12,953 nt of DNA. Source: Ruminococcaceae bacterium UBA5391. GTDB lineage: Bacteria > Bacillota > Clostridia > Oscillospirales > Acutalibacteraceae. Shown here in pieces: positions 67-12,953 of the stretch (position 1 is the stretch's first letter; every line of letters begins with the position of its first letter). A program made the translations under genes and the position numbers. The notes beneath the pieces are model-generated. The model saw nothing but the letters and a program-made list of their open reading frames with translations, made no database searches and was not told the origin of the DNA. The stretch covers positions 3,127 to 16,079 of the forward strand of contig DHOL01000018.1 in NCBI GenBank assembly GCA_002410755.1. Direction: 5' to 3'.

Positions 67-142
67 TGGTGGAGCATAGCGGGCTCGAACCGCTGACCTC
101 CACACTGCCAGTGTGGCGCTCTCCCAGCTGAGCTAATACCCC
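67..142 (-). tRNA. tRNA-Ala (anticodon GGC)
   Basis: Read on the minus strand this folds as a complete cloverleaf. The acceptor stem GGGGTAT pairs with ATGCTCC, allowing G-U pairs, followed by discriminator A and a genome-encoded CCA (complement of 67-69). The D-arm contains AGCTCAGCTGGGAGAGC and the T-arm contains GGTTCGAGCCC. The anticodon stem CCACA/TGTGG closes the loop CTGGCAG, giving anticodon GGC (complement of 107-109), which reads the alanine codon GCC. A promoter lies upstream and a hairpin terminator downstream, so it appears to be a one-gene transcript. Confidence 0.96.
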
Positions 143-6266: not shown

Positions 6267-6342
6267 TGGTCGAGGTGACAAGATTCGAACTTGCGACATC
6301 CAGCTCCCAAAGCTGGCGCGCTACCAGCTGCGCTACACCTCG
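6267..6342 (-). tRNA. tRNA-Pro (anticodon TGG)
   Basis: On the minus strand a complete cloverleaf is present. The acceptor stem CGAGGTG/CACCTCG opens with the C1 characteristic of bacterial tRNA-Pro, followed by discriminator A and encoded CCA (complement of 6267-6269). The D-arm reads TAGCGCAGCTGGTAGCGC and the T-arm contains AAGTTCGAATCTT. The anticodon stem CCAGC/GCTGG closes the loop TTTGGGA, giving anticodon TGG (complement of 6307-6309), which reads CCA and, by wobble, other proline codons. It has its own promoter and terminator. Confidence 0.96.
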
Positions 6343-6505: not shown

Positions 6506-6916
6506 TCATGCAGAAGTGCATTCTCTGATGTGCGCTGCGACTTTAACATCCTCTTTTTTAATATGATTTAAAAGCCAGCCTGCCACACTTGTATTTGTCT
6601 TTGCCACAAGGTCAATGGAAGCGCCCTTCTGCTGATATTCATCAACAAGGTTCTGCACGGTTTTCCTGAATGCATCATGGTATCTTTTATGGTTGGGATA
6701 ATCCGGGTAACGGTACTTCCTTTGCAGCCCTTCCTCATCACTGAAATGCTTGTTTACATAATTGTTGAGAAAATTCAGCGTTTCTTCAATCTCTGTACGG
6801 CCGCGGCCCGTCATACATGCTGACAAAAGCTTATTAATTGCAGTAAACAGTTGCCTGTGCTCATTGTCAATCAGCTCATTGCCTGTTTCAAGGTCTTTTG
6901 TAAACTGATATACCAT
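6506..6916 (-). CDS. Bacteriohemerythrin (hemerythrin-like oxygen-binding protein)
   Basis: This 136-residue protein is a single-domain hemerythrin, a four-helix bundle that binds O2 reversibly at a di-iron site. All seven expected ligands are visible: H20 in IDNEHRQLF, H57 and E61 in the HxxxE motif HFSDE, H76 and H80 in the HxxxH motif HKRYH, and H118 and D123 in HIKKED. The length matches free-standing bacterial hemerythrins. In anaerobes they are thought to buffer or sense oxygen or iron, which is inference here. The ATG at 6916 lies 9 nt after a GGGGG box; an in-frame GTG three bases upstream is the alternative. It stands as a single gene, and no strong terminator was found before the tRNA-Pro promoter. 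Confidence 0.94.
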   Translation of the reverse strand: MVYQFTKDLETGNELIDNEHRQLFTAINKLLSACMTGRGRTEIEETLNFLNNYVNKHFSDEEGLQRKYRYPDYPNHKRYHDAFRKTVQNLVDEYQQKGASIDLVAKTNTSVAGWLLNHIKKEDVKVAAHIRECTSA

Positions 6917-6951
6917 CACTACATGCCCCCATAAAATTGATTCTGCTTCAT

Positions 6952-7186: not shown

Positions 7187-8083
7187 ATGAGTGCTTTTTT
7201 CAGGGAATATCAGCCCCAGGACTTAAAACGGCTCCAGCAGACACTGACAGAAATGGGTGCCAACCTGCTTTCTTTCTGCCGGGAGCATGGCCTTACGGTG
7301 CTTGGTGCATACGGGACGGTATTGGGGGCCTATCGGCACCATGGGTTTATCCCATGGGACGACGACATGGATTTTTACATGCCGCGGAAAGACTACAACC
7401 GGCTTCTGGAACTGACCGGTAAGGGTGTTACGATACCCGGTTATGAAATCCAGTCCTTACAAAATAACCCGGACTACATGAAACCGTTTGCAACCATACA
7501 GAAACTCGGAACTCTTTTTATCAGTAAGGGGGCCGAGCACTCCCCGGGCCATGAGCGGATGCATATTTCAATCGATCTCTTTCCGCTCGATTACCTGCCG
7601 GAAAATAAAAGGCTTGCCAAAAAGTTTGCCCGCATGGCCCGTTTCTGGTGTATGATGATGTATCTGCACAGCGGGCTGCCGGTGAATTTTCCCTTTCAAA
7701 ATCCAGTCCTCCGGAAAATGGCCTCGGCTGTGTGCGGGCTTGCCCGTTTTGGGATGAAACTTTTCCATATCGACACGGTCGCGATTCAGAAAAGGATTGA
7801 CTTTTGGCGGAGCAAAAGCAGTTCCGTCTCATCTGGGAAGATGTGCTATCTGGGAGACGTAAATTCCCTTTTCGGCTGGATTCAGGATCCGGCGTCCAAC
7901 CCGCCGAACTTTCTTCCTTTTGGTTCTCTTTTGCTTCCCGTGATGTCGGACCCGGAAGATTACCTGCGGCGCGAATACGGGAAAGACTTTATGGAGCTCC
8001 CCCCTCCGGAAAAGCGCGCGAACCATGCAGCCGCCGTGCTGGATTTCGGGCAGGAAAAGCTTCCGTCTGTAAGCCGCAGATAA
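7187..8083 (+). CDS. LicD family protein (phosphocholine/nucleotidyltransferase-fold)
   Basis: The 298-residue product belongs to the LicD family, a nucleotidyltransferase-like fold. The best-known members transfer phosphocholine to cell-surface teichoic acid or lipopolysaccharide, and others move sugar-alcohol phosphates. The signature is GTVLGAYRHHGFIPWDDDMD (residues 43-62), with D58-D60 and D62 the presumed metal-binding acidic residues, followed by the MPRKDYNRL segment. There is no signal peptide, so it should act in the cytoplasm or at the inner membrane face. The ATG at 7187 has an AGGAAAGG box 7 nt upstream. No other surface-polysaccharide gene is in the window and no choline uptake or CTP:phosphocholine genes are seen, so the donor and acceptor are unknown. 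It ends convergently 22 nt from hydF. Confidence 0.9.
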   Translation: MSAFFREYQPQDLKRLQQTLTEMGANLLSFCREHGLTVLGAYGTVLGAYRHHGFIPWDDDMDFYMPRKDYNRLLELTGKGVTIPGYEIQSLQNNPDYMKPFATIQKLGTLFISKGAEHSPGHERMHISIDLFPLDYLPENKRLAKKFARMARFWCMMMYLHSGLPVNFPFQNPVLRKMASAVCGLARFGMKLFHIDTVAIQKRIDFWRSKSSSVSSGKMCYLGDVNSLFGWIQDPASNPPNFLPFGSLLLPVMSDPEDYLRREYGKDFMELPPPEKRANHAAAVLDFGQEKLPSVSRR

Positions 8084-8105: not shown

Positions 8106-9344
8106 TCAGTGAAACGGCTTTTCCGCGTTTCCTTCCCACCGCCGGTATTCCTTTTCGATTTCCGGAAGCACAGCAAGACTGCGCTCCAGTATTCCATTCA
8201 TGTAGGCAATCGCGACGCCATAGTTCGTCATGGGGATACTTTGGTCTTTTGCGCATTTCATGCGGTACTTCAGTTCCCGCGGATTCAGCATACAGCCGCC
8301 GCAGTGTAAAACAAGGGCATATTCTGACAAGTCCTCCGGGAATCCCATACCGCTGGAAAACCTGAATTTCAGATTTTTTTCCGTAAATTCTTTCAGCCAG
8401 CGCGGCAATTTGACACTGCCAATATCGTCACACTGGCGGTGGTGGGTACAGCCTTCGCTGATAAGAACGGTATCCCCGTCCTTCAGGTGGCTGACCGCCG
8501 TTACGCCACGCACCGCATCCAGAAGGAGCCCTTTGTAGCGGGCCATCAGAATGGAAAAGGATGTCAGGGGGATGTCCGGCGGCGTTTCGGCTGAAACACG
8601 CGCAAAGGCCTGTGAATCGGTAATTACCATGGCAGGTTTCCGTCCAAGCGACTTCAATGCCGCGGTAAGCCCGTTTTCCCTGACAACAACCGAGATTGCG
8701 TCGGCTTCCAGAATATCGCGGATCATCTGCTGCTGCGGGAGAATCAGACGCCCTTTTGGCGCGGCGGAATCAATCGGCGTCACAAGGACCACAATATCCC
8801 GGGGTTGCAGCAAGTCTCCGACGAGGTGCAGCCGCAGGTCCTCGGGGGGTGTCAGGTGCGCAAGCTTTTCCTTCAGTTCCGGGATTCCGCTGCCCGTCTT
8901 TGCACTGACATAGGCTTCCTCTTTTGCAGGCGCCGGATGCCCCGGCACAAGGTCGCTTTTGTTCCACACAATCAGATAGCGGATTCCCTTTTCCCGAAAC
9001 AGTTTAAGCAGCTCCCGGTCACAGCCGCATAAACCGGCAGACGCATCTGCTACCAGCACGGCAAGATCTGCCCTGTTCAGCATCTGCCGTGCTTTCTGCA
9101 CACGCATTTGCCCCAGAGTCCCCGCATCGTCGTCAAAGCCGGGCGTGTCAATGATGACGACCGGGCCAAGGGGCAGCAGTTCCATGGATTTGCTGACCGG
9201 ATCGGTCGTTGTTCCCTTGGTGTCGGAAACGACGGCCATATCCTGTCCGGTGACCGCATTGACAAGGCTTGACTTTCCTGCATTGCGGCGGCCAAAAAAG
9301 CCGATATGGACCCGGTCGCCGGACGGTGTGTCATTTAGTCCCAT
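8106..9344 (-). CDS. hydF: [FeFe]-hydrogenase H-cluster maturation GTPase HydF
   Basis: HydF is the GTPase scaffold on which the diiron subcluster of [FeFe]-hydrogenase is assembled, with HydE and HydG, before transfer to the hydrogenase. The 412-residue product has the opening NDTPSGDRVHIGFFGRRN. Its P-loop is GRRNAGKSS (18-26), followed by the G2 threonines T45-T47, DTPG (66-69) and NKSD (128-131). The C-terminal cluster-binding domain carries C299-T-H301 and HCGGC (H347, C348, C351), matching the CxHx(n)HCxxC pattern of HydF. The start at 9344 has a GGAG box 10 nt upstream; a GTG at 9371 in the same frame would add nine unfamiliar residues. It begins 30 nt after the solute-binding lipoprotein gene with no visible terminator between, suggesting co-transcription. 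hydE and hydG are not in the window. Confidence 0.96.
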   Translation of the reverse strand: MGLNDTPSGDRVHIGFFGRRNAGKSSLVNAVTGQDMAVVSDTKGTTTDPVSKSMELLPLGPVVIIDTPGFDDDAGTLGQMRVQKARQMLNRADLAVLVADASAGLCGCDRELLKLFREKGIRYLIVWNKSDLVPGHPAPAKEEAYVSAKTGSGIPELKEKLAHLTPPEDLRLHLVGDLLQPRDIVVLVTPIDSAAPKGRLILPQQQMIRDILEADAISVVVRENGLTAALKSLGRKPAMVITDSQAFARVSAETPPDIPLTSFSILMARYKGLLLDAVRGVTAVSHLKDGDTVLISEGCTHHRQCDDIGSVKLPRWLKEFTEKNLKFRFSSGMGFPEDLSEYALVLHCGGCMLNPRELKYRMKCAKDQSIPMTNYGVAIAYMNGILERSLAVLPEIEKEYRRWEGNAEKPFH

Positions 9345-9374
9345 TTTAGGGTATCTCCTTTCCGGATGCACGGT

Positions 9375-10517
9375 TCAGAACGCGGAGGCCGCGGAGACCG
9401 GTGCAAAGATTTTTTCTGCCTGTTTGTCTGTCAAGGTAACGCCAAAGACCGTCTTGTAGTATTCTTTCGTCTTGGCCGTAATGTCGATATTCTTAAAAAG
9501 GTCCGGATAAACCGCCTTGGCAAGCCACAGCAGCGTAATGGGCGTGTCTACACCCGGAGTATAGCTGCGGTACATGCCGAGCGGCATTTTATATACTTCC
9601 TTTTTCTTCACTGCATCAATGGTACTCCAGTCAAAATTCCCGATTTTGTTGGAGTAGAGGTCGGCTGCCTGTGCCGAATTAAAATTGGTGATAAAAATTT
9701 TCTGGGGATTCCATTTGCAGACTTGCTCCATGCTGACGGCTGTAGAATTATCCATAGACAGTTCCTCGCCGACATTGACGGCGCCAACCGCGTCAGCCCA
9801 CCACTGCCCAAAGAACTGCTTGCCCGACGTCGTAATTTTTGCATTGCTGTACTGGAACAGGAAAAAAACTTTCGAGCGTTTTTCCTCTGCAAGTCTGGAA
9901 ACACGCTGCTGCACAAGGCCGTAAGTCTTGTTACTGTAGTCCGACACAATTTTGCTGCGGCTGTTGTCGGGAAAAATCTCGCTCAGGAGGGAAATCCACT
10001 GGTTCAGTGTCTCAATGCAGTTATAGTTCCATTTGTTTGCGGAAACGGCAACCGCTGCAAACCCGGCATTCCTCAGCTGCTTTCCGAGCGCAGTGCTCCC
10101 TGCGCTGTAAAACACGACATCCGGATGCAGCTTTAAAAGCTCCTCCGTATTGACATTCGCACCATTGATAAAATCGGTCTTGGCGCTGAGGATTGCCGGA
10201 TACAGTTCGGAAAGCAGGCTGTTTTTAGCGGCAGTCATGCTTGGCTGCGCCATGCCGACAATTTTTTTGGCCGAATCGAAAAAGACAGCCAGCACCGACG
10301 GCAGCGGATAAATATCACAGACCGCAATGCGTTCAATTTTTTTTGGCACTTTGACGGTATTGCCAGCATGGTCGGTCACGGTAATCGTAGAAGATGCAGC
10401 GGAAGATACGCCGCCTGAAGCGGCAGGCTTTGCCTTCTCCTGCGGGGTGCAGCCCGCTGAAGTTAAAATCATGGCAGATGCCATAAAAGCGGCAAGAAAA
10501 CGCTTGATGGTTTTCAT
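9375..10517 (-). CDS. ABC transporter substrate-binding lipoprotein, FecB/BtuF-like
   Basis: The 380-residue protein resembles periplasmic-type binding proteins of class III (helical-backbone fold), which deliver siderophores, heme or cobalamin-like metal chelates to ABC importers. A lipoprotein signal peptide (charged KTIKR, hydrophobic stretch, TSAGC) places the lipidated Cys at residue 23. A low-complexity Ala/Ser linker precedes ITVTDHAGNTVKVPKKIERI, the usual start of the binding domain. The ATG overlaps the stop of the upstream nitrogenase-like gene (ATGA), with an AAGGAAG box 7 nt before it. No permease or ATPase gene is present in the window, so the importer must be encoded elsewhere or beyond the right edge. 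The ligand is not identifiable. The neighbourhood suggests a metal chelate linked to the reductase encoded just upstream, which is inference. Confidence 0.9.
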   Translation of the reverse strand: MKTIKRFLAAFMASAMILTSAGCTPQEKAKPAASGGVSSAASSTITVTDHAGNTVKVPKKIERIAVCDIYPLPSVLAVFFDSAKKIVGMAQPSMTAAKNSLLSELYPAILSAKTDFINGANVNTEELLKLHPDVVFYSAGSTALGKQLRNAGFAAVAVSANKWNYNCIETLNQWISLLSEIFPDNSRSKIVSDYSNKTYGLVQQRVSRLAEEKRSKVFFLFQYSNAKITTSGKQFFGQWWADAVGAVNVGEELSMDNSTAVSMEQVCKWNPQKIFITNFNSAQAADLYSNKIGNFDWSTIDAVKKKEVYKMPLGMYRSYTPGVDTPITLLWLAKAVYPDLFKNIDITAKTKEYYKTVFGVTLTDKQAEKIFAPVSAASAF

Positions 10518-11662
10518 GTTTTGACTTCCTTTTCAAAAGAATTGAAATTGGAGACAAGGTTTGGAATGGATTCCCGGAAAATCCGCCCGGAAAAAGCTTC
10601 GTTCGGCAGCGGAAGGAAATCCGCGTCCGCAGGGCAGATCGGTCGGTAAAGCGGATCGGCAATCACCCACTTCATGCCCCGCAGGAAGGGAATCAGCTCC
10701 TCTTCGTCCGTTGCGGCAAGGCAGTTCTGTGAAAGCAGGGAGCTACTGGTTTCCACCGGGCAGAGGACACGGCAGCAGATTCCTTTTTCAAGCCGCAGGG
10801 CAGCGGCAAGTGACAGCGAAGTAACGCTTTCGCCAATGATGGCCGTATCGCATTCATTTTCGGAAGGACAGCACGCAATGATATTTTCCCCCGTGCCGGC
10901 AGCAGTGCGCAGTGCCCTGATAATTTTCGCTGAAAAAGCGTGACCAAACGGGGTACCGACAACGTAAGGGGTGCCAAAAATCTCCCGCAGGATTTTTGCT
11001 GCGGCAAGGCCACAGGCCGAAACCACAAGGTTAACCTGCGCTTTGCCCGCGCTTTGGATTTCTTCCAGGCTGCTCCCCATGGCCCAGACCGACCGCACGG
11101 CAAAGCCGGAATTCTCCAGCCAGGCTTTCATGGAACGGTTGCTGCCATTTACAGAGAAGTCAAGCGGTGTGACACCGAGGAGATTCACGCTGAGCGTCTG
11201 ATCCCTTTTCACACCGCGTGTGCACATCCTCTCCGCAAGGGCAGAAAAGGCCATGGAAGCGCCGGAAATGTAGGAGTGCATCCCATTCGTCGCAAAGCCG
11301 AACGAGGGGATGTCTGTTTCCTCTTCCACACGCTTTGCAAGCGCCTGGAAATCGACGCCGGTCATCATTGGTATTGGCGTGCCGGCGATGGCAACAAACC
11401 GCGGTGAAAATTCTTTTGCAGCTGATACAACATCTTTAATCAGCTTATCGTCGTTGCCGAGAATTGCATCCATTTCGGTGAGGCCGGAAAGGAAGACAAG
11501 GCTGTCGCTGTCATACCACCGCGGTTCGTCATGGGTACTGTAAGTCGAGTTGCAGCCGGACGCATCATGCATCACTGTCATCCCGCCAAGCTCAAACAGT
11601 GCTGAACAGACGCCGGAAGTATCGCCCGTATAAGTTGAAATGATTCTCGCAGTTTGTTTCAT
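10514..11662 (-). CDS. Nitrogenase component 1-like protein, shorter subunit (NifK/NifE-like oxidoreductase)
   Basis: The 382-residue product belongs to the nitrogenase component 1 superfamily (NifD/K, NifE/N, BchN/B, CfbD and relatives). Members hold iron-sulfur clusters and receive electrons from a NifH-like ATPase. Features include an early Gly/Cys region (C19), HDASGCNSTYSTHDEPRW with C37, and the SGLTEMDAILGND segment (59-71), which matches the family's S-x-L-x-E-x-D/x-I-x-G pattern. Where NifD/K have a third cluster cysteine this protein reads AIAGTPIPMMTGVD, so only two candidate ligands remain. It is short for the family (about 450-520 in true NifD/K). The ATG at 11662 overlaps the upstream stop (ATGA) and gives the natural start MKQTARIIS; in-frame GTG 11677 and ATG 11671 are alternatives. 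Probably a heteromeric partner of the upstream gene product. Confidence 0.83.
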   Translation of the reverse strand: MKQTARIISTYTGDTSGVCSALFELGGMTVMHDASGCNSTYSTHDEPRWYDSDSLVFLSGLTEMDAILGNDDKLIKDVVSAAKEFSPRFVAIAGTPIPMMTGVDFQALAKRVEEETDIPSFGFATNGMHSYISGASMAFSALAERMCTRGVKRDQTLSVNLLGVTPLDFSVNGSNRSMKAWLENSGFAVRSVWAMGSSLEEIQSAGKAQVNLVVSACGLAAAKILREIFGTPYVVGTPFGHAFSAKIIRALRTAAGTGENIIACCPSENECDTAIIGESVTSLSLAAALRLEKGICCRVLCPVETSSSLLSQNCLAATDEEELIPFLRGMKWVIADPLYRPICPADADFLPLPNEAFSGRIFRESIPNLVSNFNSFEKEVKT

Positions 11663-12953
11663 AGGCAGCATCCGCACCCCATTCCTTTAATCTGGATCAG
11701 GTGCCTTGCATTTTTAGGTTCCCGAAATGCTTCGGACATCACCTCCGCGAGACGGCAGATGCCGCTGAATCCATAAAGGCCGCCGCCTTCGACCAGATTG
11801 ACAAAATAGCCGGAGCCGGTAAAATAAGCAGCTTTCTGTCCGACGGCCAGCGTCTTTTCCGCCGGACTGCGCGGAAGAATCCGCATGGCCGGCTGGGAAA
11901 CCGGATAGAGAAGCAAATCCGGCGCAAGGCTTTGCAATGCGTCAAAATCGGCGTGCTCCGAACTGGAGAAGCTGTCGGCATAAACCCGCGTTACATGGAA
12001 ACCATGGCTGAGCAACAGCCTTGCAAGGCCAAGCGGACGCGGAAATGCAGTGCAGTCAACGGCAACCGGCGTATCCCCCAGTTCCTCCGCTGTCTTTCCG
12101 AGCGCCGCTTCACAGCGGGCGATACCCGGTGAAAAGTCGGGTGTCCGGATGCTGACGGTTTCACAGAGGTATTTCAGGTTTTCAGAAATCTCATCATAGT
12201 TAAAGCTGAACGGGATGCAGATATGCTTCTGCCCAAGCCTGCGCTCCAGCTCATCCCCGGCTGCTTTCGCCGCAGGATAATAGGAGATGCAGAAAGCGCT
12301 TTCCGCCATCTGCTGATACTCCTCATAAGTTTTGCAGCCGGTAATTTCCCGCACGGTAAAGCCATTTCCGGCAAGGAGCGCATAAAGTTCGCTCTTTTTG
12401 TCCGTTGCAAAGTCATTGCCAACAATGCTTACCGATTTCGGGTTGAGTTTTCTCGGTTTCAGGAGACTGTAAAGCTGTTTCCGCATCGTCTGGTCGGGAT
12501 TAAGCCCGCTTTTGCGCATAATCGGATTCATGTAGCAGTCAGCAAAGTCAATATCCGGAAATTTTTTCCGAAGGTGCCTGTAAACAAGCGGAAGGTCACA
12601 GCCGATAAAGTGGTGGATACAGCTCGTAAAGACAAGAACGGCAGGCGGCTTTTCCGGCAGCTTTCCGATAATGTCCGAGACACCGTCGAAAATCAGCTTT
12701 TCCATATCGCCGCTCAGCACGTCTTTCTCCCGCACCGCAACTGTGGAAAAGCGGTCAGAGACGCCCATCTCGGCGGCAGTCAGCACAACACCGCGCAGAC
12801 ATCCCTGTGCACAGACAAAAATCTGGTGCGCACCCGGAATCAGCATCCCGGTATGGACAATGTTCCAGGTTCCGCGTGCAGGCGCAGAGTATTCCAGTCC
12901 CGGCAGAAAAGGCGACGGGAAACGGGCATCCGCAATCCGCACCGGAATTCCGG
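11659..12953 (-). CDS. Nitrogenase component 1-like protein, longer subunit (5' end outside window)
   Basis: At least 427 residues are encoded, and the frame stays open to the window edge, so the true start is beyond it. Counting from the GTG at 12942, FVCAQGCLRG places C44 and C48 like the first P-cluster-type cysteines of NifD. FTSCIHHFIGCDL places C108 and C115 at the position of the NifD CPVGLIGDD loop. The ADCYMNPIMRKSG and SVSIVGNDF segments look like the second and third Rossmann-like domains. Near the C-terminus VEGGGLYGFSGI resembles the NifD GPYHGFDGF turn, but by eye the cofactor-binding His is replaced by a hydrophobic residue. The protein ends GMGCGCCL, a cysteine-rich tail not seen in NifD. 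It leads a chain of three overlapping genes. Reaction unknown; nitrogen reduction is unlikely. Confidence 0.85.
   Translation of the reverse strand, partial: GIPVRIADARFPSPFLPGLEYSAPARGTWNIVHTGMLIPGAHQIFVCAQGCLRGVVLTAAEMGVSDRFSTVAVREKDVLSGDMEKLIFDGVSDIIGKLPEKPPAVLVFTSCIHHFIGCDLPLVYRHLRKKFPDIDFADCYMNPIMRKSGLNPDQTMRKQLYSLLKPRKLNPKSVSIVGNDFATDKKSELYALLAGNGFTVREITGCKTYEEYQQMAESAFCISYYPAAKAAGDELERRLGQKHICIPFSFNYDEISENLKYLCETVSIRTPDFSPGIARCEAALGKTAEELGDTPVAVDCTAFPRPLGLARLLLSHGFHVTRVYADSFSSSEHADFDALQSLAPDLLLYPVSQPAMRILPRSPAEKTLAVGQKAAYFTGSGYFVNLVEGGGLYGFSGICRLAEVMSEAFREPKNARHLIQIKGMGCGCCL

Follow-up and report, generated by a model that had tools for sequence, protein, structure and literature searches.

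A nitrogenase-like enzyme in the hydG slot of a clostridial operon that probably replaces HydG in [FeFe]-hydrogenase maturation

The CO and cyanide of the H-cluster of [FeFe] hydrogenases are attributed to HydG. The stretch of DNA analysed in this study (the window; 12,953 nucleotides of Ruminococcaceae bacterium UBA5391, bases 3127-16079 of contig C13, which has 16,987 bases, from a genome of 1.64 Mb that is 71% complete) carries genes for HydF, for a substrate-binding lipoprotein and for two nitrogenase component-1-like subunits, here named NflD and NflK. Together with a NifH-like ATPase the two subunits form what we call NflHDK, and K1 designates the clade that holds the NflK of the window. 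The window operon was read as one for [FeFe]-hydrogenase maturation, with NflHDK probably replacing HydG and making an iron-carbonyl-cyanide unit for HydE.

NifHEN-like genes located beside hydrogenase maturation genes were described before in Coprococcus catus and other Firmicutes, with a guessed role in metallocluster assembly (Dos Santos et al., 2012; PMC3464626). They probably belong to the same family as NflHDK; the passages of that paper drawn on here mention neither a loss of hydG, nor hyp genes, nor an exchange between importer and hyp genes. For eight Clostridium acetogens, hydG was not found in five and HypA/HypB in five, with no firm explanation in the sections used here and with an unidentified ligand mechanism among the suggestions for acetogens without hydG (PMC9431212, 2022). 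The same sections cite about 1% activation of HydA with HydE and HydF alone, and more with added CO or cyanide, as well as the purification from C. autoethanogenum of an [FeFe] hydrogenase that bifurcates electrons; the latter is indirect support only, because PMC9431212 gives that species HydG and its genome lay outside our HydG search. In [NiFe]-hydrogenase assembly, Fe(CN)2CO is made by HypCDEF (PMC12130793, PMC12134894, both as excerpted). No paper that joins NflHDK, the loss of HydG and HypCDEF was found in the open-access literature, subscription papers being mostly outside the search. What appears to be new is the joining of the known link to hydrogenase genes (2012) with the missing hydG of acetogens (2022).

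The genes for NflD, NflK and the lipoprotein are joined by two ATGA overlaps, read at 11662-11659 (NflD/NflK) and 10517-10514 (NflK/lipoprotein). Of 78 related loci in which the NflD/NflK pair was measured (on the longest open reading frames, ORFs), 72 likewise show the two genes abutting or overlapping. The start of NflK was taken as the ATG of MKQTARI (11662) in an ORF open from the GTG at 11677, and most of the aligned NflK homologues start at or near MKQTA; the 5' end of NflD lies outside the window, in a masked stretch. The hydF ORF, open from the GTG at 9371 with the ATG at 9344 as the likelier start, opens 3 bp past the lipoprotein stop. A preliminary description of this DNA, made from its letters alone, had noticed both overlaps and the shared task of the joined genes, and both points were borne out. 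Its statement that no known gene context is visible was wrong even inside the window, since hydF lies there.

The same description advised looking to the right of the window for a NifH-like ATPase, a permease and an ATPase of the ATP-binding cassette (ABC) type; all were found, together with hydE and a TM1266 gene. Past the window, C13 runs into a NifH-like gene that is partly masked. Contig C62 (4114 bases) encodes, in order, a TM1266 regulator, a FecCD permease (PF01032, 282.5 bits), an ABC ATPase with a TM1266-like domain (PF00005, 106.8 bits), HydE (TIGR03956, 543.5 bits, equivalog cut-off 254.6) and the start of a NifH-like protein. The ends of C62 and C13, which were compared and not joined, agree in 80 of 86 positions, with a score of 74 against a best of 17 among 300 shuffles. 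Because of this match, the operon would read TM1266-FecCD-ATPase-HydE-NifH-NflD-NflK-lipoprotein-HydF, and the identical gene order is found on a single contig in relatives (e.g., L017, L021 and L058). The end match and the order in relatives also place in one operon a FecCD-type ABC importer, for which binding lipoprotein, permease and ATPase were all found. Of the components expected for [FeFe]-hydrogenase maturation, HydE, HydF and the [FeFe] hydrogenase were found and HydG was not. In L013 (1412-2503) a transporter ATPase is joined to a hydrogenase-system regulator domain (C-terminal, TM1266-like, 65.3 bits).

Relatives that bear hydG can read TM1266-hydE-hydG-hydF (L185, L193, L197, L208 and others), and hydE and hydG stand apart in L205 and L209-L212; these loci were hand-picked from the class draw described below, several for the closeness of hydE and hydG, and illustrate the order without giving a rate. 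In the NflHDK operon, hydE-nifH-nflD-nflK-SBP-hydF (SBP, substrate-binding protein), the NflHDK-lipoprotein block occupies the hydG slot. The class draw was an even sample of 393 genomes with a filter of at least 90% completeness, to which the window's genome was added. HydE was detected in 259 genomes (E ≤ 1e-60), HydG in 241 (E ≤ 1e-70) and NflK in 25 (E ≤ 1e-25). Among genomes with HydE, NflK was present in 19 of the 24 without HydG as against 4 of the 235 with it (Fisher p 1.2e-20), and two genomes with NflK had no HydE (G474 and G699). These two and the four exceptions with HydG (G412, G466, G480 and G576) all fall outside the K1 clade (G699 in the 100-row tree only). Accordingly, all 19 K1 carriers of the class draw have HydE and lack HydG, and K1 occurs in none of the 235 genomes with both maturases. 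The 19 carriers span nine families, eight of which also have relatives with HydG (exact within-family probability of the exclusion, 1.9e-12). Three mixed genera show no overlap, with six K1 carriers without HydG and four genomes with HydG and without K1 in g186, two and one in g257, and one and one in g307. As the exclusion holds across families and within genera, kinship does not explain it.

In C. ljungdahlii no HydG match above 68 bits was obtained (cut-off 312). The HydE of carriers keeps 73 of 88 positions when set against 19 hand-picked HydE proteins from genomes with HydG, a set from which L199, a repeat of L194, was omitted. The locus resembles HydE-HydF-HydG maturation in its HydE and HydF, both over equivalog cut-offs, in TM1266, in operon position and in an [FeFe] hydrogenase in the genome; unlike that system, most carriers are without a recognisable HydG and have NflHDK plus the importer, or plus HypFCDE and a second NflHDK, instead.

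The NflK protein search scored at least 7997 clusters. When an alignment of 16 NflK proteins was run against one genome per species, at least 585 relatives emerged, of which 80 loci were kept. These are mostly from Lachnospiraceae, Oscillospiraceae and other Clostridia, and also cover Erysipelotrichia, Loigolactobacillus, a Victivallales metagenome-assembled genome (MAG) and the acetogens Clostridium ljungdahlii, C. carboxidivorans and C. drakei. In the window's own family an NflK match was found in 12 of 300 genomes, the window's own included (E ≤ 1e-15). Nearby genes comprised hydE in 34 loci, hydF in 36 and TM1266 in 55, any of the three being present in 65; five of the other 15 are contigs under 6 kb and eight are type 2 loci (defined below). 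With hydE at most 3.5 kb upstream and hydF at most 2.2 kb downstream, both flank the cluster in 19 of the 80 loci, or in 16 of the 56 with enough flank, and the lipoprotein is present in 18 of the 19.

A [FeFe] hydrogenase (PF02906) was found in 77 of the 80 genomes tested and in 64 of 66 distinct K1 carriers, duplicates being counted once (at least three, G336=G667, G309=G619 and G329=G526, with identical coordinates). The window's genome has two PF02906 matches (best E 5.3e-87), and in L172 the hydrogenase gene adjoins the NflHDK cluster.

The preliminary description had named, as one refuting condition, relatives that never keep the lipoprotein; it is kept in 64 of the 80 loci (type 1). In 14 (type 2) hypF, hypD and hypE stand instead, no locus has both, and two have neither, namely L068, which ends soon after NflK and has a permease, and L069, with hydE and hydF. 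The type 2 order, seen whole in L177, is NifH2-NflD2-NflK2-HypF-HypD-HypE-TM1266-(NifH)-NflD-NflK-HydF-HydE, and L172 has the same order minus the first NifH. Second NflHDK sets occur in 11 loci with hyp genes and in none without; three hyp loci have no second set. Hyp proteins were called with Pfam in L044 and L060; in the other loci the calls rest on phmmer comparison with the L044 proteins. In L043 and L044 the interval between hypF and hypD holds a small ORF, which starts MCVGLPARVV and was taken, from its motif, to be HypC. On the NflK tree, importer and hyp genes have switched at least three times. The Hyp genes of C. ljungdahlii have neighbouring locus tags, CLJU_RS11345 to 11360 (tags as given in PMC9431212), and are presumably the hyp genes of L044. 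In that locus (7349-7717) a four-helix bundle protein (TIGR02436) is encoded between hypE and nifH, with a homologue in L054 and none matched in L042 or L043; the gene is possibly an insertion. In Loigolactobacillus binensis (L019, 1-14589), a member of the Lactobacillaceae, the interval from hydE to hydF holds two NflDK pairs together with six genes for binding proteins, and hydG lies elsewhere in the genome.

HypD was found in 23 of the 66 distinct K1 carriers. In the homology sample it was present in 12 of 12 type 2 and none of 37 type 1 carriers, and also in G335, whose locus has neither lipoprotein nor hyp genes; in the class draw it was confined to type 2 carriers. Genome-wide, none of the 43 distinct type 1 carriers had HypD, and the window's genome yielded no HypD and no second NflHDK set. 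A [NiFe]-hydrogenase large subunit (PF00374, E ≤ 1e-10) was matched in 5 of the 23 HypD-bearing K1 carriers, one of which, G687, gave a weak partial match of 47 bits, and 18 gave no match. On contig C3 of G687, a type 2 genome, a second HypD lies near that partial [NiFe]-hydrogenase-like match. Type 2 loci share HypF, HypD, HypE and a HypC-like small ORF with the HypCDEF assembly of [NiFe] hydrogenase; they differ from it in that these genes lie with NflHDK2 and NflHDK1, in several loci also with hydF and hydE, and in that most HypD-bearing carriers gave no [NiFe] hydrogenase match.

NflD and NflK belong to the nitrogenase component-1 superfamily by Pfam cut-off (PF00148) and fold. Neither reached an NCBIfam equivalog cut-off. 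The best nifE score was 70.9 (cut-off 505.1), well short of nitrogenase or NifEN proper; NflK scored 56.7 against BchB (cut-off 490.35) and 30.2 against CfbD (TIGR03282, cut-off 268.4), and BchY and BchZ gave no match at E 0.001 among the window proteins, leaving the cut-offs for DPOR, COR and CfbD unreached. The tree advised by the preliminary description was made with the Nif proteins of one Rhizobium, BchNB, CfbD and MarDK sequences being outside it, and separates NflK, as part of a supported clade, from NifD, NifK, NifE and NifN; the suggestion of an uncharacterised nitrogenase-like clade was correct. Support for K1 was SH-aLRT 96 in a 121-row tree and 100 in a 100-row tree. The first left out 28 of 149 rows by random draw, among them L166, which was restored in the second; L020, absent from the second as its ORF exceeded the length filter, was counted as K1 by 61% identity. 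G000, G475, G660 and G728 were placed by the 121-row tree alone and G667 by the 100-row tree via its duplicate L070, and the row of G648 (L175) is a long branch whose placement is less sure.

NflD keeps cysteines of the alpha-C88 and alpha-C154 type and ends in GCGCCL, and NflK retains the beta-C95 type cysteine only. The FeMoco ligands, which we take to be alpha-C275 and alpha-H442, are absent from NflD: the C275 column is mostly not cysteine (Cys in 2 of 10 type 2 NflD1), and another sequence stands in place of the H442 stretch in the representatives compared. NflD1 carries further conserved cysteines as well as a tail that contains Cys, and the NflD2 and type 3 proteins compared show neither. 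NflHDK is like NifEN, CfbCD (F430), DPOR and COR in having a NifH-type ATPase, a two-subunit component-1 fold and the three cysteines, and in a cofactor-building role that for NflHDK is a proposal. It is unlike them in staying under the equivalog cut-offs, in its missing FeMoco ligands and separate clade, and in an operon in which no nif, chlorophyll or F430 genes were recognised.

A sister group, type 3, reads NifH-NflD-NflK-SBP-FecCD-ATPase with no hydE or hydF alongside. Its members are from G412, G466, G480, G474, G699 and a Treponema saccharophilum plasmid, with partial views in G170 and G576; the plasmid, pTS1 (L182), brings the cluster into a spirochaete and carries two binding proteins. 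On a Sporomusa termitida plasmid (L184), a distant NifH-NflD-NflK set is accompanied by genes for a binding protein, an ATPase, two permeases of the iron type and a protein of the alpha/beta hydrolase fold; this cluster is possibly a siderophore-type relative.

Among solved structures, those nearest to the window's lipoprotein are 4ovk (ligand unnamed), HI_1472 and 4hn9, whose titles name a molybdate and an iron protein respectively, and CeuE, which binds Ni; likeness to HI_1472, which is one of sequence and fold, and kinship to the other solved binders do not reveal the ligand. The preliminary description had proposed an imported metal chelate or tetrapyrrole, and was right that a FecCD importer exists, with permease and ATPase upstream; a tetrapyrrole is not favoured by these binders. 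The importer shares with MolA/CeuE-type systems with FecCD permeases the sequence family and fold of the binding protein and the permease and ATPase families. It departs from them in the C-terminal TM1266-like domain of the ATPase and in its place in an operon of hydrogenase maturation.

Gene order, mutual exclusion with HydG and the exchange of importer for hyp genes give good support to a role of NflHDK in maturing the H-cluster without HydG; the chemistry of NflHDK and the compound imported are what we infer from that context. The NifH-like ATPase would pass electrons to a [4Fe-4S] cluster held by two NflD cysteines and one NflK cysteine, and NflHDK would build or remodel, on an iron, a CO/CN unit used by HydE, after which HydE and HydF would complete the [2Fe] subcluster as usual. 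The starting material would come from outside via the importer (type 1, as in the window) or from HypFCDE and a second NflHDK (type 2). Since importer and hyp genes swap, the economical reading is that the importer would bring the product of HypFCDE and NflHDK2, or a substitute. A more specific route, free of HydG and independent of tyrosine, is tentative and rather doubtful: HypFCDE would supply Fe(CN)2CO with cyanide from carbamoyl phosphate, and NflHDK2 and NflHDK1 would remodel it by ATP-driven reduction to an Fe(CO)2CN-type unit that HydE accepts. Bacteria such as that of the window, whose genome yielded no HypD and no second NflHDK, would then import a small iron-cyanide/carbonyl complex made by neighbours.

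Several observations weigh against the replacement of HydG by NflHDK. In the class draw, 5 of the 24 genomes with HydE and without HydG have no NflK match (G202, G406, G489, G531 and G587) and stay unexplained. In the homology sample, in which 50 of the 80 genomes were tested for HydG (those left out were mostly shorter contigs), HydG was over the cut-off in four carriers (C. drakei, Intestinibacter bartlettii, a Lactobacillus sp. MAG and Loigolactobacillus binensis) and in split pieces in a fifth (G320); hydG and NflHDK can therefore coexist in 4, probably 5, of the 50. C. carboxidivorans has a HydG match of 198 bits, under the 312-bit cut-off. No HydG over the cut-off was found in the window's genome, which at its level of completeness proves little. 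G728 and G323 have NflK and no PF02906 match at E 1e-20. The part of PMC9431212 used here assigns HydG to C. autoethanogenum and names atypical radical-SAM candidates in other acetogens, which weakens the argument from acetogens. Finally, type 3 is found in genomes with hydG or without hydE, and the pair of enzyme and importer therefore has a job outside hydrogenase maturation.

Mainly because of type 3, which pairs the same enzyme and importer without hydE and hydF, an alternative was kept in which NflHDK is an accessory iron or metal supply: the importer would bring a chelate or oxyanion from which NflHDK frees or inserts the metal reductively, and HydE and HydF would obtain CO and cyanide either through a radical SAM enzyme like HydG that went unrecognised or from a source yet to be identified. 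The nearest kin of the binding protein bind metals and oxyanions, which fits this alternative, and the slight HydA activation by HydE and HydF alone and the atypical HydG candidates (PMC9431212, in the part used here) agree with it. We nevertheless consider it unlikely, as it does not account for the missing gene being hydG, a ligand source, rather than an iron importer, nor for HypFCDE, which assembles iron, cyanide and CO, standing where the importer is absent. That NflHDK forms a separate pathway for reducing a tetrapyrrole or metal chelate taken up from outside, with hydE and hydF as mere neighbours (the idea of the preliminary description, whose interpretation overall was partly supported), fits the permease, ATPase and lipoprotein and the type 3 loci; it is very improbable given hydE, hydF or TM1266 in 65 of 80 loci, with short contigs and type 2 loci among the rest, the exclusion of hydG within genera and type 2 loci without an importer. 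It is equally hard to credit that HydE and HydF serve NflDK as itself the target of an H-cluster-like organometallic cofactor, which would suit the operon partnership and the extra NflD1 cysteines, when nearly all distinct carriers have [FeFe] hydrogenase genes, one beside the cluster in L172, and those without hydG show no other maturation route for them.

The features of the window are collected in Table 1; further genes encode an amidase, an SDR oxidoreductase, ThrS and a MATE transporter.

Table 1. Position, strand and supporting matches of features in the window.
Feature	Position	Strand	Remarks
NflD, nitrogenase component-1-like subunit	11659..12953	minus	stop at 11659, ORF open at 12951; PF00148 71.2 bits, cut-off 28.6
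NflK, nitrogenase component-1-like partner subunit, K1 clade	10514..11662	minus	PF00148 121.1 bits
Substrate-binding lipoprotein of FecCD-type ABC importer, MolA/CeuE-like (FecB-type)	9375..10517	minus	PF01497 50.4 bits
HydF, H-cluster scaffold GTPase	8106..9371	minus	TIGR03918 544 bits, equivalog cut-off 325.55
LicD-family gene	7187-8083		PF04991; converges on hydF
Hemerythrin-domain protein	6506-6919	same as hydF	PF01814; downstream of hydF, outside operon count
tRNA-Pro(tgg)	6267-6342		
tRNA-Ala(ggc)	67-142		

The industrial acetogens C. ljungdahlii and C. carboxidivorans have [FeFe] hydrogenases without a recognisable hydG, and several acetogens have HypCDEF without HypAB. Both puzzles are set out in PMC9431212, and one gene cluster accounts for both. 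If the route from Fe(CN)2CO is true, organometallic cofactors would be cross-fed in the gut, and the cofactor pathways of [NiFe] and [FeFe] hydrogenases would be bridged. Replacement of HydG by NflHDK would give the nitrogenase superfamily a new function and would explain H2 metabolism in many gut Clostridia.

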